Source of the DNA: Lacunisphaera sp.
GTDB lineage: Bacteria > Verrucomicrobiota > Verrucomicrobiia > Opitutales > Opitutaceae
Length of the DNA stretch: 64,000 nucleotides
Reading direction: 5' to 3'
Assembly: GCA_029945445.1 (NCBI GenBank)
Contig: JAQSCO010000001.1
Location: 1-64,000, forward strand
Shown here piece by piece: positions 8,758 through 52,998 of the stretch (positions are counted from its first letter, which is position 1; every line of letters begins with the position of its first letter). The notes under the pieces were generated by a model. That model was not told the origin of the DNA. It worked only from the letters and a program-made list of their open reading frames with translations, and made no database searches. The translations under genes and the position numbers were made by a program.

Positions 8758-10575
8758 CTAGGGTTTTCCGGCCGTCGCGGACGCGTCGAGCAGCTGCACC
8801 TGCACGAAATAGGCGCCCCGTTCCTTCCCGCTCCGGGCTTCCCGCAAGGCCGTCTTCAAGCGGGCCGGGCCGGCCGGAAGGTCCAGGGTGAAAGTGACCG
8901 AACTGGCATCGGGTGAAGTGACTTGGGTTTGCTTCTGGTCATTAATGATCAAGCGAGCCTCATTAGCTCCGATGGGATGGGGATCATCTTCCGGAAAGCG
9001 TGAAAGTCGGACGGCGTAGCGGCCTGGTTGTGTGATGTCGATCAGCCAGAAACCCTGCGCGAAAAGGTCGCTGTCGGCCAATTGCGCGGTCTGCCAAATG
9101 GCGCGGCCCTCGTCGGGAAACCAGTCGCGCGCGGTGAAGCGGGTGGGGTTCTCATGCGAGTCGCCCACCAGGAACCGGGCTTCTTGCGGGTGTTCGTGGG
9201 ACACGTCCTTGCGCCACTCCCGATAGGCGGTGGTCAAACGATTCACCACATCAGGGTGGTCCGCTGCGACATCGTGCTGCTGCCCGGGATCGGACTTGAT
9301 GGCGTAGAGCTCTCGATTCACCAAGCGCCAGCTTTCAGTCAGAACCGCGAAGGGCGCCCGGGCGGTTGAGGTGATATTTGCTGGCTCGCGGCTGACAACG
9401 AGGGTGCGATCGGGCCAGTTCGGGTGGTCGTGCTCGAGCAAGGGTCGCAGGCTGCGGCCATCAAAGTGGAGCGAGTGGGGCACGTTCAGACCACAGAGAT
9501 CGACGAGAGTGGGCATCAAATCGAAGTGGGCCGTCAGGCCGCCGACCTGACGCCCGCCCCTGAAGCCGGCGGGCCAGCGGGCCCAGCAGCATAGGCGGTG
9601 TCCGCCTTCGTAGACGGAGCCCTTCTCCCCGCGCATCCCAGCGTTGAATAGGGCGGGCTCCGTTCCATTGGTAGGCAGCTTGGCGGCGGTGCCGTTGTCC
9701 CCCATGACAATCAATAGCGTGTCTCGTTCGAGCCCGAGTTCGCGCAGCCGGATGAGTAGCCGGCCCAGATTGTAGTCTAAATTAGCGATCATGCCATAGA
9801 ATCGGGCCCGCTCCTCCGGGTGTCCCTGTGTTCGGTAGGGATCGGCGTAGGCGTCGGTCACGCCAAACGGGCTGTGCATAGCGTTGAGGGGCAGATAAAC
9901 GAAGAAAGGCTGCTTTTCGGGCGAGTTTGGCTTCTCCCCGATGAAACGCATGGTTTCGTCAAACCATACATCGGTGCAGTAACCGTGGAATTTTTCCGGA
10001 TTCCCGTTCCGGTAGTAGGTATCGTCGAAGTAATGGTTGCCGGTCGGGTTGCCGATCTCATCGACTCCGCCGGCGCGGTGGGCCACGACCTCTTGAAAAC
10101 CGCGATACATCGGGGCGTAGGGATAGGGATCGCCGAGGTGCCACTTGCCGAACATGGCGGTGCGGTAGCCGGAGGCGGCGAAGGCCTGGGCCATGGTGAA
10201 CTCGTCGGGGTGGAGGAGCTGGCGGCCTTCCGTGATGGTCCAGGCGCCGGTGCGAACACTGTAACGGCCGGTGAGAAGGGCGGCACGGGTGGGCGTGCAG
10301 ACAGGATCGGTGTGGAAATCCTCCAGGCACACGCTCTCGGCGTGGAGCCGGTCGAGCTGGGGTGTCTTCAGCCAAGGGTTGCCATGGCAGGCCACGTCAC
10401 CGTAGCCCATGTCGTCGGCGAGGATGAGGATGACGTTAGGCCGTGTCGCGGTGGCAGCGCGAAGAGAGGCTGGTCCTATAGCCAAGGCCGCGCTGAGGGC
10501 GCACATCCGGGCGGCCCGGCACAGCCGCCGGGACTTTGCGAGGTGTGAAAGAGTTGGTTCGTTGTTCGTGCTCAA
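8758..10575 (-). CDS. S1-family sulfatase
   Basis: Exported arylsulfatase-type enzyme, 605 aa, removing sulfate esters from sugars. RPNVILILADDMGYGD supplies the first metal-binding aspartates, and PVCTPTRAALLTG carries Cys93, the residue converted to formylglycine. GKWHLGD and the later MGDNGT block complete the active site. The C-terminal ~130 residues form an extra beta-rich domain. The start is uncertain: a TTG at 10575 overlaps the upstream GH2 stop (TTGA), which suggests translational coupling, whereas an ATG at 10506 would give a shorter signal sequence. Regiospecificity cannot be read from the sequence. A formylglycine-generating enzyme is needed but is not in this window. Confidence 0.93.
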   Translation of the reverse strand: MSTNNEPTLSHLAKSRRLCRAARMCALSAALAIGPASLRAATATRPNVILILADDMGYGDVACHGNPWLKTPQLDRLHAESVCLEDFHTDPVCTPTRAALLTGRYSVRTGAWTITEGRQLLHPDEFTMAQAFAASGYRTAMFGKWHLGDPYPYAPMYRGFQEVVAHRAGGVDEIGNPTGNHYFDDTYYRNGNPEKFHGYCTDVWFDETMRFIGEKPNSPEKQPFFVYLPLNAMHSPFGVTDAYADPYRTQGHPEERARFYGMIANLDYNLGRLLIRLRELGLERDTLLIVMGDNGTAAKLPTNGTEPALFNAGMRGEKGSVYEGGHRLCCWARWPAGFRGGRQVGGLTAHFDLMPTLVDLCGLNVPHSLHFDGRSLRPLLEHDHPNWPDRTLVVSREPANITSTARAPFAVLTESWRLVNRELYAIKSDPGQQHDVAADHPDVVNRLTTAYREWRKDVSHEHPQEARFLVGDSHENPTRFTARDWFPDEGRAIWQTAQLADSDLFAQGFWLIDITQPGRYAVRLSRFPEDDPHPIGANEARLIINDQKQTQVTSPDASSVTFTLDLPAGPARLKTALREARSGKERGAYFVQVQLLDASATAGKP

Positions 10576-15486: not shown

Positions 15487-17154
15487 TTACTCGTAGCGAT
15501 AGACCCGGCAGCGGCTGATTCCGGTGCCCAGGTCGTTCGCGAAAGGAATGCTTTCGGGCTTTCCGGGAAAATCCAGGAATCGCCACCAGTGGCCGCGGCC
15601 GGCTTCGTCGCCGTTTAGGCGCCGGCTGGGGACCCATTGACCGTCGATGAAGCGGCCCTCGTCCACTGCGAGGATGCCGGCGAGCGCCGGACCCGGGGCG
15701 AGCGGCCGGAAGCGCACGCGAAAGCCGAAGCCTGCGCCAAGAAATTCGTTTTCGCCGGTGTTGATGATGAGGCCGCCGGCGGTGGCGGGTTTCTGGCCGA
15801 AACCTTGGTCGAGCGTGATCTCGAGTTCGTAGCCGCCGAGCCGGCGGGTGACGGCCGGCTGTTTCTCGTCGAGCAGGAAGCCGGTCATCGCATCCTTGCC
15901 CTGGTGGGCAAGGATCTCGGGAGCGATCTGGCGCAACACCGCGTATGCGCGGCACAGCGGCTCGCTTTCGATGTCCACCACGGAATCGATTCCAAACGGC
16001 GAAACGCCGATCGCCTCGTGCTCGCCCACGGCATAGAAGGACCATCGCGCGGCCGTCTCCCCCTTGAGCATTTCCGGAATGAAGAGTTGATTGCCGGGGC
16101 GGGCGTAGCTGCGGCACCAGTGCTCGAAATTGAGCTGGTAAATGTCGGGGACAAATAGGTCGAGGTGCGACGCGGCTGCCATCCAGACGTCGAGGGTGTG
16201 GGGGATAGGGCCGCCACTTGGCCAGTCGCCCGGGCGCTGCTCGGGCTTATTGAGCCAGCCGTTGACAAACATGGGAAGGGGATACTCAGCCTTACCGGCG
16301 GTGGTGACGGAGTCGATGTAGGCGGCGTAGTGCCACGCCATGAAAAGTTCGTCGGTCTGTGGGCCGCTGCCGAATACCTCATCCCATGTGCCGCTGGTAT
16401 GGGCGCCATGTGCTTGCCAGAGCGCGGCGAGATCCTTGTCCAGTTCGGCGTGATGGAGGGAAAGATGCGCGAGCAGCGCCGGCGGCACGGGCCCGGCGTA
16501 GGCGAGATTGGCGGCGGCGCTCCGGTCGCGCGAGTCACCGAGCACGCCGACCTCATTCTCCACTTGCACCATGACGACGGTGTGTCGGTCGCCGTCGACC
16601 TCGCGCAGATGCCGCATGAGTGTAGCGAAGGCGCGTCGGTCGGCTTGGAGCGCCTCGTTAGAAAAGGCGGAAACGATCTCGACACTCTGACCGCTCTGAA
16701 CCTTCACGCGAGGAAAGCGCTGGAAATCGCGCTTCATCCACGCGGGAGCGTAGCTCGACATGCCGTTCTTCCATGTGCCGAACCAAAGCAGGATGAGCCG
16801 CAGGTCGCGCCGGCGCGCATCCGCGATCAGTCCGTCGACCAGATGGAAATCGAATTCACCTTCGCGGGGCTCGATCAGCTCCCAGGAGACCGCGGCGAGC
16901 ACCGTATTGAGCTGCAACTTTGCCAGCCGGTCCCACGCGGGAGCCATAAAGGTGAGATCCGACGAACTCGAGTTGTGCAGTTCGCCGCCAAGAACGAGGA
17001 ACGGCTTGTCCGCGACAATCAATTGGGTGGCGGTTCCCTGCTTGGCGAGGTGCGGAATGGCCGGCGCGGCTTGGCTGGCGACAGCGGCGAACGCGAGCCC
17101 GGTGAAGATGAGCAGGGTCAACTGTCGGAGAAAAGGGAGTAGTGTGGTTCGCAT
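15487..17154 (-). CDS. GH35-type beta-galactosidase with C-terminal DUF5597-like domain
   Basis: Exported clan GH-A beta-galactosidase, 555 aa. The ATG at 17154 is preferred to a TTG one codon earlier. Signal peptide spans ~1-30. The TIM barrel shows LVLGGELHNSSSS (54-66), WELIEPREGEFDF (91-103), MVQVENEVG with proton donor Glu201, and LFIPEMLKG with nucleophile Glu361. The C-terminal ~150 residues (from ~420) form the beta-rich DUF5597-type extension seen in Caulobacter-like GH35 enzymes. It leads a minus-strand series of hydrolases and is separated from the TonB receptor terminator by about 115 bp. It would release terminal beta-galactose from galactan oligomers. Confidence 0.87.
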   Translation of the reverse strand: MRTTLLPFLRQLTLLIFTGLAFAAVASQAAPAIPHLAKQGTATQLIVADKPFLVLGGELHNSSSSDLTFMAPAWDRLAKLQLNTVLAAVSWELIEPREGEFDFHLVDGLIADARRRDLRLILLWFGTWKNGMSSYAPAWMKRDFQRFPRVKVQSGQSVEIVSAFSNEALQADRRAFATLMRHLREVDGDRHTVVMVQVENEVGVLGDSRDRSAAANLAYAGPVPPALLAHLSLHHAELDKDLAALWQAHGAHTSGTWDEVFGSGPQTDELFMAWHYAAYIDSVTTAGKAEYPLPMFVNGWLNKPEQRPGDWPSGGPIPHTLDVWMAAASHLDLFVPDIYQLNFEHWCRSYARPGNQLFIPEMLKGETAARWSFYAVGEHEAIGVSPFGIDSVVDIESEPLCRAYAVLRQIAPEILAHQGKDAMTGFLLDEKQPAVTRRLGGYELEITLDQGFGQKPATAGGLIINTGENEFLGAGFGFRVRFRPLAPGPALAGILAVDEGRFIDGQWVPSRRLNGDEAGRGHWWRFLDFPGKPESIPFANDLGTGISRCRVYRYE

Positions 17155-17267
17155 CAAGAGTGCGCCGACTGGGTGGAAGCCGGCAATACTATGCTATTAC
17201 GGGGTCATTGGAATTATCCTCGGTGGGAGGTATCGCTTCCACCGGGATTTGCGATTGCCGTGCTTGG

Positions 17268-21127: not shown

Positions 21128-22420
21128 TCACGGGGTAGATTCCTCGAGGCGCGTGACCTCACCAACCAGAAAGAAATAGGAGCAAAACCCGAGCGCGGAA
21201 ACGCCGCCGATCACGAAGAGCGCGGGGGTGAAATTGCCGTCCTTGGCGAGCCAGCCGATCAGGAGCGGGAAAGTGGCTCCGGAGAGATTGCCGATGCAGT
21301 TGAAAACCCCGCCGACCAGTCCGATCAGCCGAACCGGGGCCAGCGAGGAGATGAAGACCCAGGCGATTGAGGCCAGCCCGTTGCCGAAAAAGGCGATGGT
21401 CATGAAGGTGATGATGAGCGGCGTGCTGGTGGTGAAGTTGGCCGCGACGATGATCGTCATGAGTGCCATGCCGCAAAGCACCGGGGTCTTGCGGGCGAAG
21501 CTCATGGAATGGCCACGCTTGAGCAGCCAGTCGGAGGTGAACCCCGAGAGCAGGACGCCGACGAACGCCCCGAGGTAGGGAAGCGATCCGTAGAAGCCGG
21601 AGCTGAGGCCGGTGAGGCCGCGCGACTCCTTCAGGTAGGTCGGGAACCATGCGAGGAAAAACCAGAACAGCGAGCCGAGGCAGTATTGCCCGATGTAGAC
21701 CCCCCAGAGCTTGCGGTGTTTGAACGCCTCGCCGAGGTCGCGCCAGCTGAACTTGCCGGCCCCGGCTTTCGTGGTGCCGTCTGGTAAGCCGCCGCCGGCG
21801 CGAATGTAGTCGAGTTCAGCCGCGTTGACGGTCGGATGCTCGGCCGGGTTGCGGTAGAGAACCCACACCACGGCGGCCCAGACAATGCCGAGGCTACCGG
21901 TGATATAGAATAGGCCGCGCCAGCCGAAGTTCTGCTCGATCGCGACCAGCGCATACGATAGCGCAGCGAGCCCCAGGTATTGGCCGGAAGTGTAGATGGA
22001 GATGGCAGTGGCCCGCTCGCGGTCGGGAAACCAACTCGTGACAATCTTGTTGTTACAGGGAAATGAGGGTGCCTCGAATACCCCGATGGCGAGGCGGCAG
22101 CCTACCAGCGTAAGCATGGAGTTGGCGAAGCCTTGGACCACGGTGACGACGGACCACAAGAACATGATCACACTGTAAAGGATACGCGTGCGGAAAACAT
22201 CCACCATGATGCCGCCGGGAACCTGCAGGAATGAGTAGGTCCAGCCGAAAGCCGAGAAGATCAACCCCATCTGCACCATGCTGAAACCGAGATCCTGCCG
22301 GAGCGCCGTGCTCGCCACCCCCAGATTGGCGCGGTCCATATAATTGACCACGACGGAAATGAAGAGGAGCACAAGCATGTTGTATCGCTTGCGCGTGGGG
22401 AGGGCGGCAGGAGTGGACAT
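21128..22420 (-). CDS. MFS sugar-acid transporter (ACS family, glucarate/galactonate-type)
   Basis: Inner-membrane symporter of 430 aa with twelve predicted helices. The opening RYNMLVLLFISVVVNYMDRANLG, the TM4 region GVFEAPSFPCNNK, and the loop TSWFPDRERATAIS are characteristic of GudP/DgoT-like carriers. Substrates in the family are aldonates and aldarates. It starts 34 bp after the DgoD-like dehydratase stop, so the pair is probably one transcript for import and dehydration of a sugar acid such as galactonate. It is distinct from the other ACS transporter at 4643-5974. Confidence 0.88.
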   Translation of the reverse strand: MSTPAALPTRKRYNMLVLLFISVVVNYMDRANLGVASTALRQDLGFSMVQMGLIFSAFGWTYSFLQVPGGIMVDVFRTRILYSVIMFLWSVVTVVQGFANSMLTLVGCRLAIGVFEAPSFPCNNKIVTSWFPDRERATAISIYTSGQYLGLAALSYALVAIEQNFGWRGLFYITGSLGIVWAAVVWVLYRNPAEHPTVNAAELDYIRAGGGLPDGTTKAGAGKFSWRDLGEAFKHRKLWGVYIGQYCLGSLFWFFLAWFPTYLKESRGLTGLSSGFYGSLPYLGAFVGVLLSGFTSDWLLKRGHSMSFARKTPVLCGMALMTIIVAANFTTSTPLIITFMTIAFFGNGLASIAWVFISSLAPVRLIGLVGGVFNCIGNLSGATFPLLIGWLAKDGNFTPALFVIGGVSALGFCSYFFLVGEVTRLEESTP

Positions 22421-22454: not shown

Positions 22455-23630
22455 TCACCAGTTCGTGTAGCTGCCGTCGGCGCGCCAGAGGCGGGGTGCC
22501 TCCCAGAAACGCAGCGACATTTCCTTCAGCGCCTGCTCGTTCACCTCGACGCCGAGGCCGGGTTCCGTTGGGATTTCGTGGGCGTTGCCGGTCAGTGGCA
22601 CGCGGCGGACGAACACGCTCCGGTCGGTGGTGGGCAGGTCCTCGACGGGGGACTCGCGGGATTCGAGGTGGGAGAAGTTCGGAATCGCCGCGGCGAGATG
22701 GACGGAGGCGGCGGTGCAGATCGGTCCGAGCGGATTGTGCAGGAGGAGATCGATGTAGTTGGCCTCGCACATGGCGGCGACCTTCATCGCCTCGGTCAGG
22801 CCTCCGACATTGCAGACGTCGACGCGCGCATACTGGAGGATGTTGCGCTCGATGTAAGGTTTGAACGCCCACTTGCTGGAGAACTCCTCGCCGATGGCGA
22901 AAGGCACGTCGGTCAGCTTGCGGAGCGCCTCATAGGCCTCGGGCGACTCGGCGCGGATCGGCTCCTCGACGTAGTCAATAGTGCCCGGGGGCATCGCCTG
23001 GAGGAAGGTGGCGGCTTCGGGCACGCTCATGCGGTGGTGCGGGTCGGTGCCGATCATGGCGGCCCGGCCGGCGGCCTCGCGGCCGGTAAGCAACACCTTG
23101 ATGGTGCGGGCGCCGGCCTCGCGCACATCGTAGATGGAGCCGCCTTTGCCGGAGTAGTCACCTCCGACGGGCGAGGCGTAGTTGAGTCGGAAGGAATTCC
23201 AGCCGGCCGCGACGAGTTTCTTCGCGATGCCAGGGATCTCCTCAAGCGGCGTCTCACCGGGCACACTGGCGAAACACTCGACCCGGTCGCGCTGGGCGCC
23301 ACCGAGCAGTTGGTAGACGGGCACGCCGAGGCTTTTCGCCACGAGGTCGTGCAGGGCGATGTCGATGGCGGAGATCGCCGCGGTGAGCACCCGGCCGCCC
23401 TCGAAATACTGCCCACGATACATTTCCTGCCAGAGTGCGCCCATGCGGCGCGGGTCCTTGCCCAGCAGAAATTCGCGGAAGTGCCGGACGGCGCCGTCGA
23501 CGGCGAGTTCACGCGAGGAGAGGCCGGATTCGCCCCAGCCAAACTGGCCGTTGTCGGCCTCGACCTTTACCAACATTTGGTTGCGGAAGCCGATCCAAGC
23601 GACGTAGGGAATGATGGCGGTGATTTTCAT
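22455..23630 (-). CDS. Enolase-superfamily sugar-acid dehydratase (D-galactonate dehydratase-like)
   Basis: Cytoplasmic mandelate-racemase/muconate-lactonising enzyme of 391 aa. Mg2+ ligands are Asp196 (GTDPHHR), Glu222 (YVEEPI) and Glu248 (IGEEFS). The second histidine of DPHHR (His198), His298 in LLHNPLGPI, and Glu323 in HLESRES match the DgoD catalytic set. Expected reaction: a six-carbon aldonate to 2-keto-3-deoxy-aldonate, feeding the KDG kinase and aldolase at 34429-36175. 3,6-anhydro-L-galactonate cycloisomerases of agar degraders are also in this superfamily, so that activity is a real alternative. It leads the transcript with the MFS gene; site C lies 275 bp upstream of its start. 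Confidence 0.85.
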   Translation of the reverse strand: MKITAIIPYVAWIGFRNQMLVKVEADNGQFGWGESGLSSRELAVDGAVRHFREFLLGKDPRRMGALWQEMYRGQYFEGGRVLTAAISAIDIALHDLVAKSLGVPVYQLLGGAQRDRVECFASVPGETPLEEIPGIAKKLVAAGWNSFRLNYASPVGGDYSGKGGSIYDVREAGARTIKVLLTGREAAGRAAMIGTDPHHRMSVPEAATFLQAMPPGTIDYVEEPIRAESPEAYEALRKLTDVPFAIGEEFSSKWAFKPYIERNILQYARVDVCNVGGLTEAMKVAAMCEANYIDLLLHNPLGPICTAASVHLAAAIPNFSHLESRESPVEDLPTTDRSVFVRRVPLTGNAHEIPTEPGLGVEVNEQALKEMSLRFWEAPRLWRADGSYTNW

Positions 23631-24061
23631 GATCGTAGGTGGAGGATTATGGCGCAGCTAGGTATGAATCGAGTGTCGGTATCAGGGGCAAAAATTGTGC
23701 GTCCGCAGGAAGGAGGGGCCACCAACGTCTGTTCCGCTGGCAACGAAGTTGATCCAGGCCAGAGGCCGGCCGGTTGCAGTTCCGTCGAGACGTGGATTTG
23801 ATCCCAGCAAGGGACAGGGCATGAAGCGTCGGGTGGGGAATGATGTCGGTCTGTTTTGCACGCTCTTCAAGGAGGCCCGGCTCCAACTCCATGCCAAATT
23901 TAAAATGTATGCAACATGCATAAAACTCGACTCTTTGGTGACCCCTCGGTTACACCATAACCAACCCCACTGCACTTTAGATAGCCTAGCTGGTAGCGGT
24001 AAGTCCGAGGTTCCGCTATGGTGTGGCGCTGCGGCCAAAATCGTCCGCTGCGAAGTCATCT
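23631..24061. other. Divergent intergenic region between dehydratase and P450
   Basis: About 430 bp with no convincing gene. It contains the palindromic cluster at 23905-23922 and must hold the promoters of both flanking genes. Reading frames crossing it lack starts, ribosome sites and recognisable protein sequence. Confidence 0.6.
23905..23922. promoter_or_regulatory. TATGCA-ACA-TGCATA inverted repeat (candidate operator, site C)
   Basis: Inverted repeat with 6-bp arms inside ATGTATGCAACATGCATA. On the minus strand it contains TTGCATACAT, one base from the TTGCATRCAA pattern of sites A, B and D. It lies between the dehydratase and P450 genes. Confidence 0.45.
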
Positions 24062-25216
24062 ATGCCCTGTCCCTTCCATCAAAAGCAGCCCGACCCCTTT
24101 GTCGACGCGCGGCGCGTCGACGGCGTGCTGGTCAACGAATTCCAAGGCAATCCAGTGCCGATGTTGCTCCGGCACGAAGCCGTGCGACAAGCGGCGCGGA
24201 ACTGGGAGCAATTCAGCTCGGATGCACCGTTCAAGGTGCCGATTCCGACGGAGGAAAACGTTCGCACGGTGCGCCAGCTTCCCTTGGAGGTCGATCCGCC
24301 GGCCCAGCAGGAATATCGGACCTTGGTCGAGCCCTTCTTCAATCGGGCGAAGCGGCCTGAAGTGGTCGCCCAAGTGGAGGCGTTGGTCGCGAATCTGATC
24401 CACGACGCCTTGGGGCGGGCGGAGATCGAGGTCGTGCGCGAGTTCGCCATCCCGTTACAGTCGCGATCGCTCGCCTGCCTGCTGAATATGCCGCAGTCAG
24501 AAGCTGGAATCTGGATCGGTTGGGGACTGCATGTGTTTCGCGAGGGTGAGGGCGAGCGCAAGGGATCAGCCTTGGAGCATTACAACAACGGATTGCTCGA
24601 TCGCGCGGCGGCGGCCCCAGGAGAGGACTTCTTCAGCGCCTTGACCTTGGCCCGCTTCCAAGGGCGGCCGCTCACCCGGGAGGAGATGCTGGGTTATTGC
24701 AGCATCGTTTTTGCCGGCGGTCGTGACACAATAATCAATTCGATTTCGGGGATTATCGGGCACCTCGCGGCCCGGCCGGCAGACTTGGAATTTTTGCGCG
24801 AAGACCCGAGACGGATCACGGGGGCGAGCGAGGAATTTTTCCGCGTCCTTTCGCCTTCGACGCATCTGGCGCGAAAATGCCGGCACGCGACCACGCTTCA
24901 CGGTGTGCCGGTCGCGGCGGGCGATTTCATCTCCCTGAACTTCGCGGCGGCTAATTACGATCCCGACGTTTTCGAGTCACCGGAAGAAGTGCGCCTCGAC
25001 CGGCGGCCAAATCCCCATGTGGCCTTCGGTTTTGGTCCTCACTTGTGCCTGGGGGCGCCACATGCGCGGCTAGTCGTCCGGACGCTGCTGAAGACACTAT
25101 GTGACCGTGTGGAGCGGATCGAGCCGATCGAGGTGGTGGACAAATACGAGAACGAGACAGGCTACCGCCGCCGGCTCGCCTACGAATTGCTTAGGGTCCG
25201 GCTGATCGGGCGCTGA
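24062..25216 (+). CDS. Cytochrome P450 (class I bacterial; candidate 6-O-methyl-galactose demethylase)
   Basis: Soluble P450 of 384 aa, starting MPCPFHQ, a common start for such enzymes; the ATG at 24062 is preferred to an upstream GTG. The I-helix oxygen-binding motif is AGGRDT (218-223), the ExxR pair is Glu258/Arg261, and the haem loop is FGFGPHLCLGAPHAR with the thiolate Cys329. It lacks a membrane anchor. P450s in agar/porphyran loci of marine bacteria oxidatively remove the methyl group of 6-O-methyl-D-galactose, and the surrounding GH50, GH117-like and sulfatase genes make that the best hypothesis. No ferredoxin or ferredoxin reductase is seen nearby, so electron partners must come from elsewhere. 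It is the only plus-strand gene between 4.6 and 34.4 kb. Confidence 0.93.
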   Translation: MPCPFHQKQPDPFVDARRVDGVLVNEFQGNPVPMLLRHEAVRQAARNWEQFSSDAPFKVPIPTEENVRTVRQLPLEVDPPAQQEYRTLVEPFFNRAKRPEVVAQVEALVANLIHDALGRAEIEVVREFAIPLQSRSLACLLNMPQSEAGIWIGWGLHVFREGEGERKGSALEHYNNGLLDRAAAAPGEDFFSALTLARFQGRPLTREEMLGYCSIVFAGGRDTIINSISGIIGHLAARPADLEFLREDPRRITGASEEFFRVLSPSTHLARKCRHATTLHGVPVAAGDFISLNFAAANYDPDVFESPEEVRLDRRPNPHVAFGFGPHLCLGAPHARLVVRTLLKTLCDRVERIEPIEVVDKYENETGYRRRLAYELLRVRLIGR

Positions 25217-25249
25217 GCCGGGGTCCGCGCAAGGACTTGTGGCCAACGA

Positions 25250-26800
25250 TTAAGAGCCGGCTGGTGTGACTTTCAAGGTGTAGGCGTGCTGGCCGGGAGC
25301 TTTGGCTGGCAGGGTCACGTGCAGGCCTTTGTCATCCTGGGTCCACTTGAGGGCGCCAGGCGCGCCGAGCATCGTGACTTGCTTGATGCCTTTGGGCAGG
25401 GCGGTCGGCGTGAACCAGCGGACGGTGAAGCTAGCGCCGTCGCCGGGCCAGTCGAGGATGATGGCGTAGACCGTGTCGCCGTGCCGCGTGAAACGCACAT
25501 CCTCGGCGGTGAAATCCTTCCGCCGGTGCTCGGCATCATTGGCCATGGTGCCATCGACGACCTTGGTTGAGCCCTCCCCGAACTTGGTCCATGGGCGGGT
25601 GCCGTAGATGGCCTCGCCGTTCTGCTTCAGCCAGGCGCCGATCTCGCGGAGCATCTGCTGCTCCTGGTCGGGGATGGTGCCGTCGGCTTTCGGGCCGATG
25701 TTGAGCAGCATGCAGCCGTTCTTGCTGACGATGTCGACGAGGTCGTCGACCAGCGAGTTCACGGTCTTGTAGTCCTGATTGGCGATGTGGCCCCAAGAGT
25801 TTTTCGAGACGGAGGTGTCGGTCTGCCAGTAGAGGCTGCGGATGTTGGCGAGGCCGCCGCGTTCGATGTCGAGCACGCCGGCGGTGTCGGGGAAGGACTC
25901 GCCGCCGAATTTCTTGTAATTGATCGCGACCATGTCCTTCCAGGCGGAACCGCGGTTGTAGTAGTAGGCGGAAAAGGTCTGCAGGTGTCGGCTGAACGCG
26001 GGTTGGGCGATCCACCAGTCGAACCAGATCAGGTCGGGATGGTATTTGTCCACGAGTTCAGTTGCGTGCAACAGCCACTCGTCGAGGAAGGCTTTGTCGG
26101 GCGGGGTGGCGCCATTTTCGGACTCATCCTTGTCGCGGGCCGGACCGTAGAGGCCGCGGTAGCGGTCGTCCTGCACGTCGGAGGGCAGTTTGCGGCCGCC
26201 GCCGTAGAACCACCAGTGCTCGGCGAAATGGTTGGAGAGGCCGAAGTGCAGGCCCTCGGCGCGGATGGTCTTCTCCAATGCGGCAATGACATCGCGTTTC
26301 GGTCCCATCTTGGCGGCGTTCCAATCCGTATAATCGGAGGCATACATCGGGAAACCGTCATGGTGCTCGGCGACGGGCACGACGTAACGGGCGCCTGACT
26401 CCTTGAAGAGCTTGGCCCAGGCTACGGGATCGAACTTCTCGGCTTTGAACTGCGGGATGAAGTCCTTGTAGCCAAACTTGTCGACCGGGCCGTAGGTCTG
26501 CACGTGGTGTTCGTAGGCCTTGTGCCGGCCCCCGGGAATATACATCTCCCGCGGATACCACTCGGAGCCGAAGGCGGGCACCGCATAGACGCCCCAATGG
26601 ATGAAGAGCCCGAATTTGGCGTCCTGATACCACGCAGGGATCTGGTAGCCGGCGAGCGAGTTCCAGCTGGATTTGAAGGGGCCGTGGTCGGCGACCTTTT
26701 GGATTTCGTTCAGCCGGCCTTCGTGATCGGCGGAGGGGGCCGCGGCAGCGGCGCTCGCGACCAAGATGGCGAAGGGAAGGAGGAAACGGGTGGTGTTCAT
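25250..26800 (-). CDS. GH29 alpha-L-fucosidase family enzyme (second copy)
   Basis: Secreted 516-aa GH29 enzyme. The start at 26800 (MNTTRFLLPF) gives a clean signal peptide of ~22 residues; longer readings only add hydrophilic sequence. Diagnostic blocks are YQDAKFGLFIHWGVYAVPAF (58-77), AEHHDGFPMY (144-153) and HPDLIWFDWW with nucleophile Asp261. A C-terminal beta-sandwich follows. It is last in a four-gene run (sulfatase, DUF5060 protein, sulfatase, GH29) with gaps of 19, 7 and 43 bp, so it is probably co-transcribed with them. Target may be alpha-L-fucose or alpha-L-galactose caps uncovered by the sulfatases. Confidence 0.93.
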   Translation of the reverse strand: MNTTRFLLPFAILVASAAAAAPSADHEGRLNEIQKVADHGPFKSSWNSLAGYQIPAWYQDAKFGLFIHWGVYAVPAFGSEWYPREMYIPGGRHKAYEHHVQTYGPVDKFGYKDFIPQFKAEKFDPVAWAKLFKESGARYVVPVAEHHDGFPMYASDYTDWNAAKMGPKRDVIAALEKTIRAEGLHFGLSNHFAEHWWFYGGGRKLPSDVQDDRYRGLYGPARDKDESENGATPPDKAFLDEWLLHATELVDKYHPDLIWFDWWIAQPAFSRHLQTFSAYYYNRGSAWKDMVAINYKKFGGESFPDTAGVLDIERGGLANIRSLYWQTDTSVSKNSWGHIANQDYKTVNSLVDDLVDIVSKNGCMLLNIGPKADGTIPDQEQQMLREIGAWLKQNGEAIYGTRPWTKFGEGSTKVVDGTMANDAEHRRKDFTAEDVRFTRHGDTVYAIILDWPGDGASFTVRWFTPTALPKGIKQVTMLGAPGALKWTQDDKGLHVTLPAKAPGQHAYTLKVTPAGS

Positions 26801-26843
26801 GATGGTTAGGCGAGTTGCGGGAAGGCGCAGACGGGATGCGAAC

Positions 26844-28589
26844 TTACGGAAGGAGCTCGACCCCGACATAGAAAGCGCCACGGGATTGTCCGGACGCTTT
26901 GTCGTCGAGGAAGGTCTGCAGATCGGCGGGACCGGCTGGAAGGTTCAGATCCAAGGTCACGGCAGTCGCTCCGGCGGGAATGGCGGTCTTGGCCTCGCGC
27001 TCGCCCACGCGCACGCGGGCAATGGTGGCTTGCAGCGGGATCGGTGCCTCGGCCGGGCGGTGGCGCAGGGTGAAGCGATAGCGGCCGGCGGCGGCGATTT
27101 CGACTTTCCAGACCCCATTGGCTGCTGGCAGAGCGGCGACCTGCTCCTGATCCCACGGGATGGTGCCGTCCGCGGCATGCCAGTCCATGCAGTTGAGGCG
27201 CGTCGGATTCTCGGCCAACGTGCCAAGGGGAATCCTGATCTGGCGGGCGAGAGCCGGGGCGAGGCTCGTCCACCAGCTTTCATAGCGCTGGCGCAAAGCG
27301 GCAACGACGTCGGGATGGGTGGAGGCGACATCGCTTTGCTCACCGGGGTCGGCCGGCAGGTCGTAGAGTTCCACGCCATTCACGAAGCGCCAACGGTCGG
27401 TCATGACTGCGCTATGCGTCCATTTCGGAGGTATTTCCTTCCGTTGCGCATGAGCGAACAGGGTGCGTTCGGGCCACGTGGTGGCGTCTCCGCGCAACAG
27501 CGGGACCAGACTGGTGCCGTCAAGCGCAAGGTTGGCCGGGACGGACAAGCCGCAAAATTCAGCCAGGGTGGGCAGCAAATCGATGTGGGCGGTGAGTTGG
27601 CGCAGGTCTCGTCCGCGGTCGATACCGCCGGCGGGCCAGCGGATGAACAAGGGGTCCCGATGTCCGCCTTCATACTCCGAGCCCTTGGTGCCGCGCATGC
27701 CGGCGTTGAACCCTTTCCAACCAGGGCCCGAAGCGCCGTCCTTGCCCGGCTTGGCCACACCACCCGCCGTGCCGTTGTCCGACATGAAAACGAAGATCGT
27801 GTTGTCGGCCAGACCGAGCTCGGTGAGGCGGGCGCGCAGACGGCCAAGGTTCGCATCGGCGTTTTCAATCATGCCGTAGAAGTTGGCCATGTCGGTCGGC
27901 ACACCGCGCTCGCGGTAGGGCCGGCTATAGTAGTCCGACACATTGAAGGGACTGTGCGGAACGTTGGTCGCAAGGTAGACGAAAAAGGGACGGTTCTTGT
28001 TCGCCTCGATGAAATGGAGGGCTTGGTTGAAGAATACGTCGGTGCAGTAGCCGCTGAAAGACTCAGGCTTGCCGTTGTGCAGAAAGGTGTCGTCGAAATA
28101 ATCGTTGCCCCAGAAATCGGGAGTCTGGCCGATGCCGCCGCCACCGAACGTGAGAACCTCCTCAAAGCCGCGATCTTGCGGCCGCAGGGGATAGTTGTCG
28201 CCGAGGTGCCATTTGCCGAAGAGCGCGGTCCGGTAGCCGCCGCGACGGAAGAGGTCGGCCATCGTGGTCTCGTCGGGAGCGAGGAGTGAGCGGCCCATCA
28301 CCGTGTGCCAAACGCCCGTGCGAGTGGAGTAGCGGCCGGTGAGGAGGGCGGCGCGGGTGGGCGAGCAGGTGGGATCGACGTGGAAGTTGGTGAAACGGGC
28401 GCTCTCGTCGTGCAGACGATCCATCTGCGGCGTGCGGATCATCGTGTTGCCATGGACGGCGATGTCGCCGTAGCCTTGGTCGTCGGTGACGATCAGGATG
28501 ACGTTTGGTCGGGAGGGCTCGGCGCCGTGGGTGGCGACGCATACCAGCGCCGCGAGTAGCAGTCGGATCACAGGTTGCTGGGTGGGCAT
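26844..28589 (-). CDS. S1-family sulfatase
   Basis: Exported sulfatase, 581 aa, with signal peptide ~1-22. RPNVILIVTDDQGYGD provides the metal-binding aspartates and PTCSPTRAALLTG holds Cys75, the formylglycine precursor. FGKWHLGD, FMSDNGT and RGTKGSEYEGG complete the expected pocket. The C-terminal ~140 residues form an added beta domain like that of the sulfatase at 8758-10575, and the two are clearly paralogous. It begins 7 bp after the DUF5060 gene stop. Confidence 0.95.
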   Translation of the reverse strand: MPTQQPVIRLLLAALVCVATHGAEPSRPNVILIVTDDQGYGDIAVHGNTMIRTPQMDRLHDESARFTNFHVDPTCSPTRAALLTGRYSTRTGVWHTVMGRSLLAPDETTMADLFRRGGYRTALFGKWHLGDNYPLRPQDRGFEEVLTFGGGGIGQTPDFWGNDYFDDTFLHNGKPESFSGYCTDVFFNQALHFIEANKNRPFFVYLATNVPHSPFNVSDYYSRPYRERGVPTDMANFYGMIENADANLGRLRARLTELGLADNTIFVFMSDNGTAGGVAKPGKDGASGPGWKGFNAGMRGTKGSEYEGGHRDPLFIRWPAGGIDRGRDLRQLTAHIDLLPTLAEFCGLSVPANLALDGTSLVPLLRGDATTWPERTLFAHAQRKEIPPKWTHSAVMTDRWRFVNGVELYDLPADPGEQSDVASTHPDVVAALRQRYESWWTSLAPALARQIRIPLGTLAENPTRLNCMDWHAADGTIPWDQEQVAALPAANGVWKVEIAAAGRYRFTLRHRPAEAPIPLQATIARVRVGEREAKTAIPAGATAVTLDLNLPAGPADLQTFLDDKASGQSRGAFYVGVELLP

Positions 28590-30235: not shown

Positions 30236-31792
30236 TCACGGATGCGAAGTCTTTTCCCACAAGCGAACTAGGTCGGGATATTTTTCATCCGTGTCACCCG
30301 CGTCCTTTTTCAACTGCAGCAACTGGTCCTTCAACTGCGCCACAGTCTTCGCGTAGGCGGGTTTAGAGTAGACGTTGTGGCGCTCGTCGGGATCCTTACG
30401 CAGATCGTAGAGCTCCCAGCCGGGCGTGGTCGGTGTCGGCAGTGCGTCTTTGGCGTCGAGGGGCAGTCCGTAGAAGAAGATCAGTTTGAAGTCCTTGGTG
30501 CGGATGCCGTAGTGCGCGGGATTGTCGTGGTGTGTCATGTGCATCCAGTAACGGTAGTAGCTGGCGGTGCGCCAGTCGGCGGGTGTGTGGCCTTCGAGGA
30601 TCGGGCGCACGCTGCGGCCTTGCATGTAGTCGGGCGTCTTAACCCCCGCGAAGTCAAGGAGCGTAGGGGCGAAGTCGGTGTTATTGATCAGCGCGTCGTT
30701 GACGGATCCGGCGGCGACGTGGCCGGGGAAGCGAACGATGAAAGGCACGCGTAGCGAAGGCTCATACATCCAGCGCTTGTCGATGTAGTCGTGCTCGCCG
30801 AGCATGAAACCCTGGTCGGCGGTGTAGAGGATGATGGTGTTGTCGAGTTCCCCGGTCTCCTTAAGGTAGGCGAGAAGGCGCGCGACGTTGTCGTCTACGC
30901 CGCGCACACAGCGCAGATATTTCTTCATGTAACGCTGATAGCTGACGCGCATGTATTCCGAATCGGAAAGAGATTTGTCGACAAACATGTGGTCGCCCAT
31001 GTTGCGGCGCTGGTTGCGCTTGCCGACGGAGGTGCCTGTGCCCTTGGTGGCCTCCGACCCGTAGTTGGGGACGTCGCGCATACTGGCGGGCTCCGGGATG
31101 GTGACGTCGTCGTAGAGGAAGTCGTAGCGCTCGGCGTTCTCGAAGTTGTCGTGCGGCGCCTTGAAGTGGTTCATGAGGAAGAACGGCTTCGAGCGGTCGC
31201 GGTGCTTGAGCCACTCGAGACTAAAATCCGCGATGACATCCGTGGAGTGGGCCGAGTCATAGATGTTGTCGCCGGTGTGGATGATGTTGTCGGGCCACTG
31301 GCCGGCACCCTTTTTGTGAAAGGAAGGGTTGAAATACTTCCCTTGGCCAGGGAGCACGCAGTAGTAGTCGAACGCGGCAGGCTCGGAGGTAAGGTGCCAC
31401 TTGCCGATGATGGCGGTCTGGTAACCGGCCTCGCGCATCTGTTTCGGCAGATACTGGTTCGCGACGGGCAGCACATCCGACAGGGTGCGCACGCCGTTAA
31501 CGTTGGAATACTGCCCGGTGATCAGTGTCGCACGGCTTGGCGTGCAGATGGAATTGGTGACGACCGCGTTGGTGAAACGCATACCTTCGGCCGCGAGCCG
31601 GTCGAGGGTCGGCGTCGGGTTCAGCGGAGCGAGGATGCCGCCGTAGGCCCCGATCGCCTCGGCGGCGTGGTCATCCGACATGATCCACAGAATATTGGGC
31701 TGCTTCGGGGTGGCGGCTCCAGCGGCGTTGAGACTGGCGGTAAGGGCGACACTGGCGGTGAGGGCGAATAACGAATGGAGTTTCATGGGCAT
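30236..31792 (-). CDS. S1-family sulfatase (distinct subfamily)
   Basis: Exported sulfatase of 518 aa, signal peptide ~1-26, ATG at 31792 with a second in-frame ATG two codons later. QPNILWIMSDDHAAEAIGAYG gives the metal site; SICTPSRATLITGQYS contains Cys83 for formylglycine formation. GKWHL, MNHFKAPHDNFE and TADQGFMLGEHDY follow. It differs from the other two sulfatases in the first block (DDH rather than DDM/DDQ) and lacks their C-terminal extension, so it is a separate subfamily, probably with a different sulfate position. It heads the sulfatase-DUF5060-sulfatase-GH29 run, 136 bp downstream of the GH50 gene. Confidence 0.95.
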   Translation of the reverse strand: MPMKLHSLFALTASVALTASLNAAGAATPKQPNILWIMSDDHAAEAIGAYGGILAPLNPTPTLDRLAAEGMRFTNAVVTNSICTPSRATLITGQYSNVNGVRTLSDVLPVANQYLPKQMREAGYQTAIIGKWHLTSEPAAFDYYCVLPGQGKYFNPSFHKKGAGQWPDNIIHTGDNIYDSAHSTDVIADFSLEWLKHRDRSKPFFLMNHFKAPHDNFENAERYDFLYDDVTIPEPASMRDVPNYGSEATKGTGTSVGKRNQRRNMGDHMFVDKSLSDSEYMRVSYQRYMKKYLRCVRGVDDNVARLLAYLKETGELDNTIILYTADQGFMLGEHDYIDKRWMYEPSLRVPFIVRFPGHVAAGSVNDALINNTDFAPTLLDFAGVKTPDYMQGRSVRPILEGHTPADWRTASYYRYWMHMTHHDNPAHYGIRTKDFKLIFFYGLPLDAKDALPTPTTPGWELYDLRKDPDERHNVYSKPAYAKTVAQLKDQLLQLKKDAGDTDEKYPDLVRLWEKTSHP

Positions 31793-31928: not shown

Positions 31929-34259
31929 TTATTTTCCGGCGCGGCGTTCGTAGAGGCCGTAATTCACGCGCTTGGCCGCCTCCACCATTTCCGGGTAGGG
32001 TATGTCGGTGTTGGTCACCCAACCGACATTGTAGTTTTCGCCGTCATAGGCACGCCCGGTGACTGGATCGTCGACGTATTGAAACCAATGGGCGCCGACC
32101 ATGTAGGGATTATCAATCACTGTAGACATGTATTGTTCATACATGCGGGCGCGGTCAGCCTGATCAATGGCGATCACCAAGCCGGGGTGATACAAGCCCG
32201 TGTCCGAGGTCGACCCGATATGGTATTCCCCGATAATCGTCGGGAAATCCAAATCCTTCAGGAAGCCCCAGGTGTCGGGGTGCATGCCCTCGCGATAATT
32301 GTTGAAGCTCATCACGTCGGTATACTGCTTGGCGACCTTGACGAGTTCGACCGGGATGCCCCACTCAGCGGCGACCCGCACTCCCATATACATGTGATGC
32401 GGCATGACGCGTTTGATCTCGTCGCGCACGATCCGGAAGTAGGTCTCGGCGTAGTTGTGGTAAAGAGCGGAGAAGTCGGCGCGCGCGGTGTCGTTGAGCT
32501 TGTCCATTGCGGCACCGCCGGCAAAGGCCTCCCATGAGGCGAAGCCGGTGCCCCATGCCTTGTTCAGGACGACGATGTCCCGGTATTTGGCCGTGAGGAT
32601 TGCGGTGAAGGCTTTTTTCGCGGGACACTCGGCAGCCGTGCGTGCCAGAGAATAATAGACCAGGCCGAAATGTGCGTGATCGCTGGCCATCGATCCCCAG
32701 CCTTTCTCATTATCGACGAAGAGACCGATGCACCACGGCGAGCCCTTCACTTCACGGGCGATCTGTTCGATGGTCAGCCGTGCGCGTCGCGAAAACTCCG
32801 GATCGTAGACGTCGGGTAACGGGCTCCAGTAGTCCATTCCTGAGTAGATGACCTTGTATTGACCGATGATCCAGCCGTTGGCGAAGTAGGGTAGCTGCTG
32901 GTTGTCGTAGAAGCTGGGATCGATCCAGTTGCCGAACGAGGTGAAGCCCCAGTCTTTCATCCGGTCGAGTGTGACCTTGCGCCAGGTGTCCATGTAGGAA
33001 GCCGGGGCGGTCTGACCGTAACGGCGCTCCAGGTTGGCCTTGTAGAAACTGTAGACCTCGCCGTGCTCGAGCACGCCTTGGTGGACCACGCGTCGATAAC
33101 CGTAGTGCTCGCCCAGCGGATCGTCGTAGGCGGGCAGCCACTCGAACATCTCGCGGCGCTGCGGCGAGGCGAGGAACCGGGTGCCGACCGAAACGGCGGG
33201 CACAGGCACGATGTCGCGAGAATCCTCGGGGGTCAGTTCCTCGGGATCGATGACCCGGACGGAGGGATCACCAAAGTCATAGCCGGTCACGGTTTCCAAG
33301 TTGGCCATGCGCACGTTGGCAATTGCGCTGGAGAAAAACAGGTAGCCGTCCGGGTCGATCATCCACCATTTGCCGTCGACCTTTTCGACGCGGAAATATC
33401 CGGTGGCCTTCTGCTTCGGGCCCTTGGCCCAACCTCCGAAGCGCGAGCGGTTCGGCACCCCAATCGAGGCGGCGAGCGCCTTCTGCTCCCGCTCGGCGAC
33501 GGCCTTGAGTTCCGCCTCCGAATGGATCTTGACGGGATATTCGGCCTTTGCCGTCTGACCGAATCGATCAACAATCCCGACAAGATAATCCGGATCCTGC
33601 GGTGGATCGCGGCGCAATCGAAGGTTGTCGATCACGACCACTTTGTCTTCGAACTGCGCGTAGGTCCGGAAAATGATCTTTGTAACCTTCGAGATATCCA
33701 TGCTCCGGTCACCGCTGCGCCAGGACAGCTTGACCTCGTTCGTTTGCCAGGCGGGTGGGGTGTCGCGCATGCCGGTCTGGCCGTACGCGACGCGCCCGTT
33801 CAGCGGGGCGTAATAGGTTTCCGGCCGGCCCGGGGGAACGGCGACGCTGCGGGATTGTTGCCGGCCTTTATCGTCGACCAATAGGACGAAGACTTGCACG
33901 GAAACTTTCCCCGGATTGTAGGCGTCGAACGCGAGGTTGACCCCGCCCCGACCGCTCCAGTTCCAGCCGTCCTTGGATAGGAGCACGGCGTCCGCCTCCT
34001 CGCGCGGAGCGAACTCGAGTCGCGCGGCCTTGTGGCCGCTTGTCACGCCCTGTTCGGTGACGAGGGACAGTTTCACATCGTGCGACGCCGTTTGATCGAA
34101 ATTCAGGGTCTCAAAGTCATCGAGGGTCGCTATCACTTCCGGTTGAATGACTGAGGCCGAGGGCGACGCATGGGTCGATACGGCCAAGGCTATAAGGAGT
34201 AAGGCTACAGCGTGCGGTTGCTGATAACCTTTTCGTGTGCGAGCAGAGGTCTTTTCCAT
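31929..34259 (-). CDS. GH50 beta-agarase-like enzyme
   Basis: Exported 776-aa enzyme related to GH50 beta-agarases, which cut beta-1,4 bonds in agarose and usually release neoagarobiose. The ATG at 34259 is preferred to a TTG 24 bp upstream. Signal peptide ends near residue 31. Residues ~40-215 are a CBM-like beta-sandwich; the TIM barrel begins around 290 (WWMIDPDGYLFFS). Family blocks include MKDWGFTSFGNWID (434-447), PYFANGWI (457-464), IGLFVDNEKGWG with proton donor Glu518, and TIIGEYHIGS with nucleophile Glu678. It diverges from the aldolase/kinase pair, and site D is between them. Together with the GH117-like gene this is the strongest evidence for an agar-type substrate. Confidence 0.85.
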   Translation of the reverse strand: MEKTSARTRKGYQQPHAVALLLIALAVSTHASPSASVIQPEVIATLDDFETLNFDQTASHDVKLSLVTEQGVTSGHKAARLEFAPREEADAVLLSKDGWNWSGRGGVNLAFDAYNPGKVSVQVFVLLVDDKGRQQSRSVAVPPGRPETYYAPLNGRVAYGQTGMRDTPPAWQTNEVKLSWRSGDRSMDISKVTKIIFRTYAQFEDKVVVIDNLRLRRDPPQDPDYLVGIVDRFGQTAKAEYPVKIHSEAELKAVAEREQKALAASIGVPNRSRFGGWAKGPKQKATGYFRVEKVDGKWWMIDPDGYLFFSSAIANVRMANLETVTGYDFGDPSVRVIDPEELTPEDSRDIVPVPAVSVGTRFLASPQRREMFEWLPAYDDPLGEHYGYRRVVHQGVLEHGEVYSFYKANLERRYGQTAPASYMDTWRKVTLDRMKDWGFTSFGNWIDPSFYDNQQLPYFANGWIIGQYKVIYSGMDYWSPLPDVYDPEFSRRARLTIEQIAREVKGSPWCIGLFVDNEKGWGSMASDHAHFGLVYYSLARTAAECPAKKAFTAILTAKYRDIVVLNKAWGTGFASWEAFAGGAAMDKLNDTARADFSALYHNYAETYFRIVRDEIKRVMPHHMYMGVRVAAEWGIPVELVKVAKQYTDVMSFNNYREGMHPDTWGFLKDLDFPTIIGEYHIGSTSDTGLYHPGLVIAIDQADRARMYEQYMSTVIDNPYMVGAHWFQYVDDPVTGRAYDGENYNVGWVTNTDIPYPEMVEAAKRVNYGLYERRAGK

Positions 34260-34337
34260 TCTTGAGTGGGGTTGGGGTGGCAATCGGATCGCGAGGTTTT
34301 CGAGTCACTCACGGATGATCTGTTTTATGATTGAATA

Positions 34338-34428: not shown

Positions 34429-35079
34429 ATGAGCTCTTTTCCTGAAACTCTTCTTAACCGATTGAGAAAATCAGGCGTCGTAGCCGGATTCTTCGTCGAC
34501 CAAGCATCGCAGGCCGTTCCGCTGTGCCGCGCGCTGCTAGCCGGCGGCATCGACTCCATCGAGCTGATGCTCCGTTCCTCTGCCGGGATGGACGGGGTCA
34601 GGGCGATCGCGGCGGAGTTGCCGCAGATCCTCCTGGGAGTGGGCACGATTTTGACGCCCGAGCAGGCGCGTGAAGTCAAGGCGGCGGGCGCGGCCTTCGG
34701 GGTGGCACCCGGCATGAATCCGCGCGTTATCCGGGCGGCAGCGGAAGTGGGCCTGCCGTTTGCGCCGGGCATCGCCACGCCCTCCGACCTAGAGGGGGCC
34801 ATCGAACTCGGCTGCCGGTTTGTTAAGTTCTTTCCGGCGGAGGCGGCCGGCGGTATTGCTTATCTGCGCAGCATGAGTGCCCCCTACAAGCATCTCGGCA
34901 TCCAATATTTCCCTCTCGGCGGGCTGAGCAACAAGAACATGTTGGAGTATTTGAAAGAACCCAATGTGCCCACCATCGGCGGCTCATGGATTGTGAAACC
35001 TGAACTGGTGGCCAAGGCCGACTGGGCGGGCATTACCACCAGCGCGGCCGCTGTCGTCCAGGCAGTGAAACAACGTTAA
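34429..35079 (+). CDS. 2-keto-3-deoxy-6-phospho-aldonate aldolase (KDPG/KDPGal aldolase)
   Basis: Cytoplasmic class I aldolase of 216 aa that splits KDPG or KDPGal into pyruvate and glyceraldehyde-3-phosphate. The Schiff-base lysine is Lys133 in FVKFFPAE and the general acid/base is Glu45 in SIELMLRS, the same positions as in E. coli Eda. GVGTILTPEQ and FAPGIATPSD are typical phosphate- and substrate-site loops. The kinase starts 4 bp after its stop, so the two form one operon. With the DgoD-like dehydratase this makes a DeLey-Doudoroff-type branch for galactose or anhydrogalactose acids. Eda and DgoA cannot be separated from sequence alone. Confidence 0.93.
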   Translation: MSSFPETLLNRLRKSGVVAGFFVDQASQAVPLCRALLAGGIDSIELMLRSSAGMDGVRAIAAELPQILLGVGTILTPEQAREVKAAGAAFGVAPGMNPRVIRAAAEVGLPFAPGIATPSDLEGAIELGCRFVKFFPAEAAGGIAYLRSMSAPYKHLGIQYFPLGGLSNKNMLEYLKEPNVPTIGGSWIVKPELVAKADWAGITTSAAAVVQAVKQR

Positions 35080-35083
35080 ACAC

Positions 35084-36175
35084 ATGAAAAACGTGGTAGT
35101 GACATTTGGCGAGATCATGGGACGGCTTGCCTCTCCCGAATTATTGCGATTGCGCCAGGCGCGCACGCTCGAAGTGACCTATGCGGGTGCGGAAGCCAGC
35201 GTCGCCGCCTCGCTCTGCAACTTTGGCGGCACGGCGCGTTATGTGACGGCCTTGCCGAAGCACGCGCTGGCCGATGCTACGATGGATGCTGTCCGTGCCA
35301 TTGGCATCGACACACGTTACATTCTGCGCACAGACCAAGGACGGCTCGGCCTTTACTTTCTGGAGACTGGTGCGAATCAGCGGCCGAGCAACGTGATTTA
35401 CGACCGCGCCGATTCCGCCATCGCGATCACGTCGGCGGACAAATACGACTGGGCGGCGATCTTCGCCGACGCCCGGTGGCTACACCTCAGCGGCATCACG
35501 CCTGCGCTGTCGAAGACTGCCGCCGAAGCTACATTGGTTGCTGCGCAAAAGGCGAAGGCCGCCGGCTGCCAGGTGTCCATTGACTTGAATTTCCGTGGCA
35601 AACTCTGGCAGTGGGACGCATCTAGGAAATCCCGCGAGCTGGCGCGAGAAACGATGCAGAAGATACTGCCGTTCGTGGATGTGGTGATTGCGAACGAAGA
35701 AGATTGCCAGGACGTGCTCGGCATCAGGGCCGGTGAAACCGACGTTCATGCCGGTGCGCTTGAAACGGCGCGCTATCCTGATGTGGCCCGACAGGTGGTG
35801 AAACTGTTTCCCAGCGTCAGCAAGGTGGCGATTACGTTGCGCGAAAGTTATTCCGCCACGCACAACAACTGGGGCGCGATGCTCTACGACGTGAAACTGG
35901 ACCAGGCGGTCTTCGCACCGCTCGATGCGAAGGGCAGCTACCAGCCCTACGAAATCAGGAACATCGTCGACCGCGTGGGCGGTGGCGATGCTTTCGCGGG
36001 CGGACTGATCTTCGCGCTCACGACCTCGGAACTTAACGAGCCGCAGGCGGCGTTGAAATTTGCCGTGGCGGCGTCCTGCCTGAAGCACTCCATTAAGGGC
36101 GACTTCAACTATTCCACCCGGGCGGAAGTGGAGGCCCTCATGGGCGGCTCCGCCTCCGGGCGTGTCGTCCGATGA
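35084..36175 (+). CDS. PfkB-family 2-keto-3-deoxy-aldonate kinase
   Basis: Ribokinase/PfkB-family sugar kinase of 363 aa; KDG/KDGal is the likely substrate. TFGEIMGRL at the N-terminus and TYAGAEASVAASLCNFGG (32-49) form the substrate lid region typical of KdgK. VSIDLNFRGKLW contacts substrate, and DRVGGGDAFAGG carries the catalytic base Asp302. It is coupled to the aldolase (4-bp gap) and its product is that enzyme's substrate. Its stop codon overlaps the start of the sulfatase remnant (ATGA). Confidence 0.92.
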   Translation: MKNVVVTFGEIMGRLASPELLRLRQARTLEVTYAGAEASVAASLCNFGGTARYVTALPKHALADATMDAVRAIGIDTRYILRTDQGRLGLYFLETGANQRPSNVIYDRADSAIAITSADKYDWAAIFADARWLHLSGITPALSKTAAEATLVAAQKAKAAGCQVSIDLNFRGKLWQWDASRKSRELARETMQKILPFVDVVIANEEDCQDVLGIRAGETDVHAGALETARYPDVARQVVKLFPSVSKVAITLRESYSATHNNWGAMLYDVKLDQAVFAPLDAKGSYQPYEIRNIVDRVGGGDAFAGGLIFALTTSELNEPQAALKFAVAASCLKHSIKGDFNYSTRAEVEALMGGSASGRVVR

Positions 36176-36483: not shown

Positions 36484-36636
36484 TGTGGGTATCCGGCGAA
36501 ATAGGACCCCCTCGATGAAAGTCTTTCCTGAACAGATTGAGTGGTCGTGCCATGATCATCCGTTCGGGAGGGGACAGCGGTTCGTCGGAGATCCTGATTA
36601 GAGTTTTGCTATCGCGTGCTTGAAACGAAAAGAATC
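36484..36636 (+). other. Short gap after the sulfatase remnant
   Basis: Contains a 28-codon frame (36515-36601, MKVFPEQIEW...) that may be the tail of another lost gene. No terminator or other feature is evident. Confidence 0.25.
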
Positions 36637-42007: not shown

Positions 42008-42024
42008 GCGGCAAACCTAGCATA

Positions 42025-42039
42025 AGTATGCCAGTATGC
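42025..42039 (+). repeat. AGTATGCCAGTATGC repeat, left copy
   Basis: 15-mer, 18 bp upstream of the transfer-operon start; 14 of 15 bases match the copy at 42293-42307 in the same orientation. It overlaps a GCATA-AG-TATGC inverted repeat (42020-42031). Candidate operator. Confidence 0.55.
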
Positions 42040-45363: not shown

Positions 45364-45366
45364 ACG

Positions 45367-50514: not shown

Positions 50515-50522
50515 GAGGGACG

Positions 50523-52993: not shown

Positions 52994-52998
52994 TGGAA

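Follow-up and report, generated by a model that had tools for sequence, protein, structure and literature searches.

The demethylation of an algal polysaccharide sugar by a cytochrome P450 has been described for marine Flavobacteriia, in which the enzyme works with dedicated partners. According to that work (PMC10033563), the P450, a ferredoxin and a reductase convert 6-O-methyl-D-galactose into galactose and formaldehyde, the demethylase P450 genes of Flavobacteriia are clustered with genes for an ADH and an esterase, and Zobellia needs the ADH to grow on 6-O-methyl-D-galactose. CYP236 is given for Bacteroidetes in a further source, the available part of which mentions neither porphyran nor Verrucomicrobia (PMC9100364). 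No publication on a verrucomicrobial CYP236 was found by a literature search that was thin on subscription journals, which is weak evidence of novelty. The solved structures 6g5o and 6g5q are taken here to be those of the Zobellia 6-O-methyl-galactose P450 (Robb et al. 2018), with CYP236 as its presumed name. Their entry title reads 'a carbohydrate active P450'.

The window considered here, a stretch of 64,000 nucleotides from a Lacunisphaera sp., contains an intact P450 gene (Table 1). Its open reading frame matches the Pfam p450 family with an E-value of 4.7e-15, and it is the only P450 of its genome in a search at E<=0.001. The protein presents the Cys-ligand loop, the ExxR motif, the acid-alcohol pair of the I-helix and the P450 fold; moreover, Cys329, AGGRDT and ExxR occupy columns that are at least 98% invariant in a 103-sequence alignment. 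The complete P450 with these three elements that the earlier note had described is thus confirmed, and so is its remark on orientation, given that the gene lies on the forward strand and both domain-recognised flanking genes on the reverse one. Since the relatives begin with MPCPFH or MSCPFH, the ATG at 24062 is the likely start and a longer reading from the GTG at 24023 is unneeded. No signal peptide is evident in the protein.

Table 1. Positions of the P450 gene, its motifs and the neighbouring features in the window
Feature	Position	Strand	Basis
GH2 beta-galactosidase-like enzyme	10572..13487	-	family match
GH42/GH35-like enzyme	15487..17157	-	family match
MFS transporter; nearest model D-galactonate transporter, 379.1 bits, below cut-off 395	21128..22420	-	
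Enolase-superfamily sugar-acid dehydratase; nearest model galactonate dehydratase, 265.7 bits, below cut-off 311	22455..23630	-	
Intergenic region between divergent dehydratase and P450 genes, 431 bp	23631..24061	.	
Perfect inverted repeat TATGCA-ACA-TGCATA, candidate operator	23908..23922	.	
CYP236-type cytochrome P450, 384 aa	24062..25216	+	ORF, Pfam, closest solved structures, predicted fold
B-C loop stretch, residues 64-76 (E64, R68, R71, Q72, P74, E76), candidate sugar contacts	24251..24289	+	family-wide invariance
I-helix motif AGGRDT, residues 218-223	24713..24730	+	sequence, invariant alignment columns
ExxR motif, residues 258-261	24833..24844	+	sequence, invariant alignment columns
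Haem-ligand Cys329	25046..25048	+	sequence, invariant alignment column
Alpha-L-fucosidase family (GH29-type) enzyme	25250..26881	-	Pfam
Sulfatase	26844..28589	-	Pfam
Sulfatase	30236..31792	-	Pfam
Agarase-type enzyme, Agarase_CBM + GH42-like barrel	31929..34283	-	Pfam
KDPG/KHG-type aldolase	34429..35079	+	family match
PfkB-family sugar kinase	35084..36175	+	family match

Among solved structures, the best relative of the window P450 is 6g5o (4.1e-92, 312 bits; the runner-up reaches 122 bits), with 40-42% identity. By the convention of about 40% identity or more for a CYP family, this value is borderline, and the protein has no official name. An AlphaFold2 model (mean pLDDT 86.6, with residues 56-65 below 50) superposes on 6g5q and 6g5o with TM scores of 0.91-0.94 at 40-41% identity, and the other 46 structures listed do not exceed 0.85. 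Sequence, predicted fold and phylogenetic tree therefore support the proposed CYP236-type placement, and the window protein is assigned to this 'carbohydrate-active P450' type: a known kind of P450, in a little-described branch.

The conservation extends beyond the catalytic motifs. In the 103 rows, including 6g5o, residues E64, R68, R71 and Q72 of the B-C loop, W151, W154, H157 and F159 of the F-region and R221 of the I-helix are at least 98% conserved; together with E76, these invariant residues suggest a shared sugar pocket. Differences in the pocket region are S266 and A270, which are Leu and Gly, respectively, in 6g5o. Together with the local sugar-acid dehydratase, PfkB kinase and KDPG-type aldolase and the genome-level association with agarase described below, these features speak for demethylation of 6-O-methyl-galactose, the best reading of the window P450 and a reasonably probable one. 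In the scheme that we infer, the P450 would act in the cytoplasm, oxidising the 6-O-methyl group of free 6-O-methyl-D-galactose and yielding D-galactose and formaldehyde. Electrons from NAD(P)H would reach it through redox proteins whose genes lie elsewhere and which also serve other pathways, and the dehydratase, kinase and aldolase encoded close by could process the released galactose.

The surroundings of the gene in this window fit a galactan locus. Pfam matches reveal agarase, beta-galactosidase-type and fucosidase-type enzymes and sulfatases, as in agar/porphyran-type loci; in all there are two GH2 enzymes, one GH42/35-like enzyme, two members of the fucosidase family, three sulfatases and one agarase-type enzyme (presumably GH50), besides two MFS transporters, TonB-receptor-like proteins, the aldolase and the PfkB kinase. 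An agar- or porphyran-type galactan locus is plausible on this gene content. It may include a galactonate-type route for D-galactose, proposed with reserve because the dehydratase and the transporter score below the curated cut-offs (Table 1). The genome carries a second agarase-module gene on another contig (G000:C16:9022-9555). Further downstream in the window, a multihaem cytochrome with TPR repeats (36616-38838) is followed by a block (38975-53026) with a conjugative coupling-protein-like gene, a MipZ/ParA-like ATPase, a TrwC relaxase, a methylase-helicase protein of 1715 aa and a serine recombinase; taken together, these genes resemble an integrated mobile element lying next to the galactan genes.

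Upstream of the P450, a 125-aa open reading frame (23682-24059) has no family match, and a promoter scan of 23500-25400 found none. The inverted repeat of the intergenic region could be an operator. As a regulon marker it was discarded, being present once only in the genome, with up to one mismatch allowed, and absent from the fetched loci except for copies of the window region. In 12 of 102 loci, the window not being one of them, AraC-type regulators are encoded no more than 1.5 kb from the P450.

The neighbourhood was compared with that of 101 distinct relatives, with flanks of up to about 10 kb. At least 3 kb was available on both sides in 66 of the 101 and less than 1 kb upstream in seven, so that some linked genes may have been missed. 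Homologues of the GH2, GH29, GH42-like and GH50-like enzymes of the window are found near 0/101 of the relatives' P450 genes, another glycoside hydrolase homologue near one and sulfatases near 23; several of the closest relatives have unrelated neighbours, such as an amino-acid permease, an HD/OB-fold protein or an RlmN-type protein. The earlier description of the P450 as lying inside a galactan locus is consequently true of this window, but the arrangement is not conserved. As a separate observation, proteins resembling, by eye, uroporphyrinogen-decarboxylase/methyltransferases lie within 1.5 kb of the P450 in five loci (L050, L073, L075, L101 and L118); such matches number five in 287 kb near the P450 versus three in 1219 kb farther away.

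At the genome level, the agarase still tracks the P450. In 387 genomes drawn from the phylum Verrucomicrobiota, a close homologue of the window P450 (E<=1e-100) is present in 24, and any match at 1e-20 in 37. The agarase module PF17992 occurs in five of the 387 genomes, and the P450 is present in four of these five but in only 20 of the remaining 382 genomes (Fisher p 5.5e-5, a test that ignores relatedness and is optimistic here because G035 and G383 belong to one genus and the agarase match of G186 is partial). The module is absent from 20 of the 24 P450 genomes. Given this absence and the unconserved context, proximity to galactan genes says little; galactan users are thus among the carriers of the P450, without being the only ones.

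These observations bear on the possibility that, with pocket and chemistry unchanged, the enzyme naturally acts on a different O-methylated hexose or deoxyhexose, such as one from a freshwater algal or cyanobacterial exopolysaccharide, the galactan neighbours having been gathered by chance or recently. The distribution of the agarase module speaks for it, as do many record titles among the best 80 of at least 570 relatives, which, in our reading, name lakes or sludge and not red-algal habitats. Botryococcus braunii is a freshwater alga. Its exopolysaccharide contains a 6-O-methylhexose, according to the available part of a paper citing Allard and Casadevall (PMC8750022), and hence a non-marine source of such a sugar exists. 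Nevertheless, the residues that may form the pocket are invariant all the way from 6g5o to the clade of the window, the genome has two agarase-type genes and sulfatases stand in the P450's own locus, so this alternative is considered a serious but minor one.

The galactose-specific reading has a difficulty of its own. A search of the window's genome at E<=1e-30 gave no homologue of the FoADH/ZoADH-type ADH, the query being the verrucomicrobial ADH of locus L048, which is FoADH-like by its context and Pfam matches only. Such a gap in the enzyme that Zobellia needs counts against 6-O-methyl-D-galactose as the substrate.

It could also be argued, from the missing linked partner and the unconserved neighbourhood, that the gene is a vestige or acts on a non-carbohydrate; an in-frame TAA stop in the P450 match of one relative (L043, G119) may indeed mark a decayed copy. 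The window gene itself is an intact open reading frame with its catalytic and family-specific residues conserved, and the clade is large and widely conserved, which makes this explanation very improbable.

Returning to demethylation of 6-O-methyl-galactose, a source of electrons is required. The earlier note had stated that neither redox partner is encoded in the window. This is borne out: no ferredoxin or P450-type reductase was found there, and in searches of the genome PF00111, PF14759, PF13459 and PF00258 matched either on other contigs only or not at all. Electrons for the P450 must therefore come from unlinked proteins, which are probably borrowed from elsewhere in the cell, because the P450 usually lies alone in the genomes of its bacterial group. 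The window's genome has no Reductase_C-type reductase and no Flavodoxin_1 protein; it has two single-cluster 4Fe-4S ferredoxins (contigs C49 and C57), candidate donors in combination with some reductase, and six Fer2 matches. By reading of the sequences, five of the six are enzyme or corrinoid-type subunits, resembling xanthine-dehydrogenase, hydrogenase/NuoG-type, SdhB and corrinoid-activation proteins. The sixth (G000:C57:48366, L022) is a membrane-anchored FAD-NAD-[2Fe-2S] reductase with the domain order of phthalate dioxygenase reductase, a further candidate donor.

This last protein raises the possibility of one specific unlinked partner instead of a shared pool, compatible with either substrate. 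It is, by the same reading, the sole Fer2 protein of the genome that looks like a dedicated donor, and its FAD-NAD-Fer2 order aligns with 2pia and with the P450 chain 6laa. Its gene, as seen by eye, adjoins multihaem cytochrome-like genes; besides, no Fer2 match at 1e-5 exists in four of the 24 P450 genomes (G268, G319, G277 and G234), so it cannot be the general partner. A dedicated role for it is accordingly regarded as rather unlikely, and a supply shared with other pathways is preferred.

The absence of partners is no oddity of this locus. They are truly missing locally, but this is the usual state in the verrucomicrobial relatives: a ferredoxin gene adjoins the P450 in eight of the 101, a linked ferredoxin reductase is found in one (L049) and a strongly similar linked ADH in three (L048, L051 and L124). 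Genome-wide, a Reductase_C-type reductase is absent from 23 of the 24 P450 genomes and present in G267, and Flavodoxin_1 is present in 20, the exceptions being G160, G298, G267 and the window's genome. The idea that a PF13459 ferredoxin tracks the P450 was set aside as uninformative (18/24 P450 genomes against 248/387 overall).

One relative has a candidate linked donor of another type. In L051 (G210) a diflavin gene (10376-12160), followed by an ADH gene, shares 4 bp with the P450 gene (9228-10379). The 594-residue diflavin protein, with Flavodoxin_1, FAD_binding_1 and NAD_binding_1 domains, is nearer to CysJ (427 bits) than to P450 reductase (264 bits). This pairing, seen in one of 102 loci, is a possible partner swap.

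A contig scan gave at least 586 matched stretches, at least 570 of them relatives at E<=1e-3. Judged by record title, the best 80 of these in similarity to the window comprise 78 Verrucomicrobiota, one member of Pseudomonadota and one of Planctomycetota; being the nearest to the window, these 80 say little on other phyla. A quick tree of 103 rows shows one unlinked group of 89 rows (SH-aLRT 92), outside which stand eight linked rows, five further unlinked ones and 6g5o. The window falls in a 21-row subclade with support of 100, recovered at 100/100 in a careful 53-row tree whose bootstrap had not settled. A single loss of the ferredoxin is not established, since the latter tree places the long-branched L049 (linked) and L044 (unlinked) inside the large group; either there was more than one loss, or gain, of the ferredoxin, or the tree is distorted by long branches. 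Residue 328, just before the haem Cys and the most discriminating column scored, was rejected as a partner marker. It is Leu in the window P450 and Asn in 6g5o; N, S or T in 9/9 ferredoxin-linked rows (6g5o included, as linked per literature) and L, F, V, M or I in 89/89 rows of the large unlinked group. Four of the five other unlinked rows are polar there and only two independent pairs lie on supported branches, so that the signal is inseparable from ancestry.

Many verrucomicrobial genomes thus carry a P450 of this branch without any linked electron donor. It is tentatively suggested that a large verrucomicrobial branch dropped the dedicated ferredoxin and runs on each cell's own redox proteins, and that at least one lineage couples the enzyme to a CysJ-like diflavin reductase. 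On this view, the demethylation of methyl sugars by a P450 would be no marine red-algal speciality but a trait widespread in fresh water. Should the branch carry out this chemistry through shared partners, P450 demethylation would be far commoner and would reach lakes, and the ferredoxin-linked, diflavin-linked and unlinked forms would offer a natural series for testing the redox-partner choice of one P450 fold.

The nearest systems can be compared by their partners. The verrucomicrobial ferredoxin-P450 operons (e.g. L038, L048, L049, L124) share the P450 family of the window at about 46-59% identity, and some carry a divergent AraC regulator and an ADH gene; the ferredoxin gene lies upstream of the P450 (ferredoxin, reductase, P450 in L049), whereas the window clade has none. 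The L051 pair likewise has the P450 family in common and neither locus has a linked ferredoxin, but the window's genome is without Flavodoxin_1. Compared with the porphyran demethylation cluster (P450, ferredoxin, reductase, ADH, esterase), the window is without linked ferredoxin and ferredoxin reductase and the genome without an ADH of the FoADH/ZoADH type. The CYP236-type enzyme of marine Flavobacteriia differs in the same respect, the window P450 having no linked ferredoxin, reductase or ADH and belonging to a verrucomicrobial branch. What the window P450 has in common with 6g5o and 6g5q is the fold, the haem and ExxR motifs, and the invariant residues of the B-C loop and the F-region.
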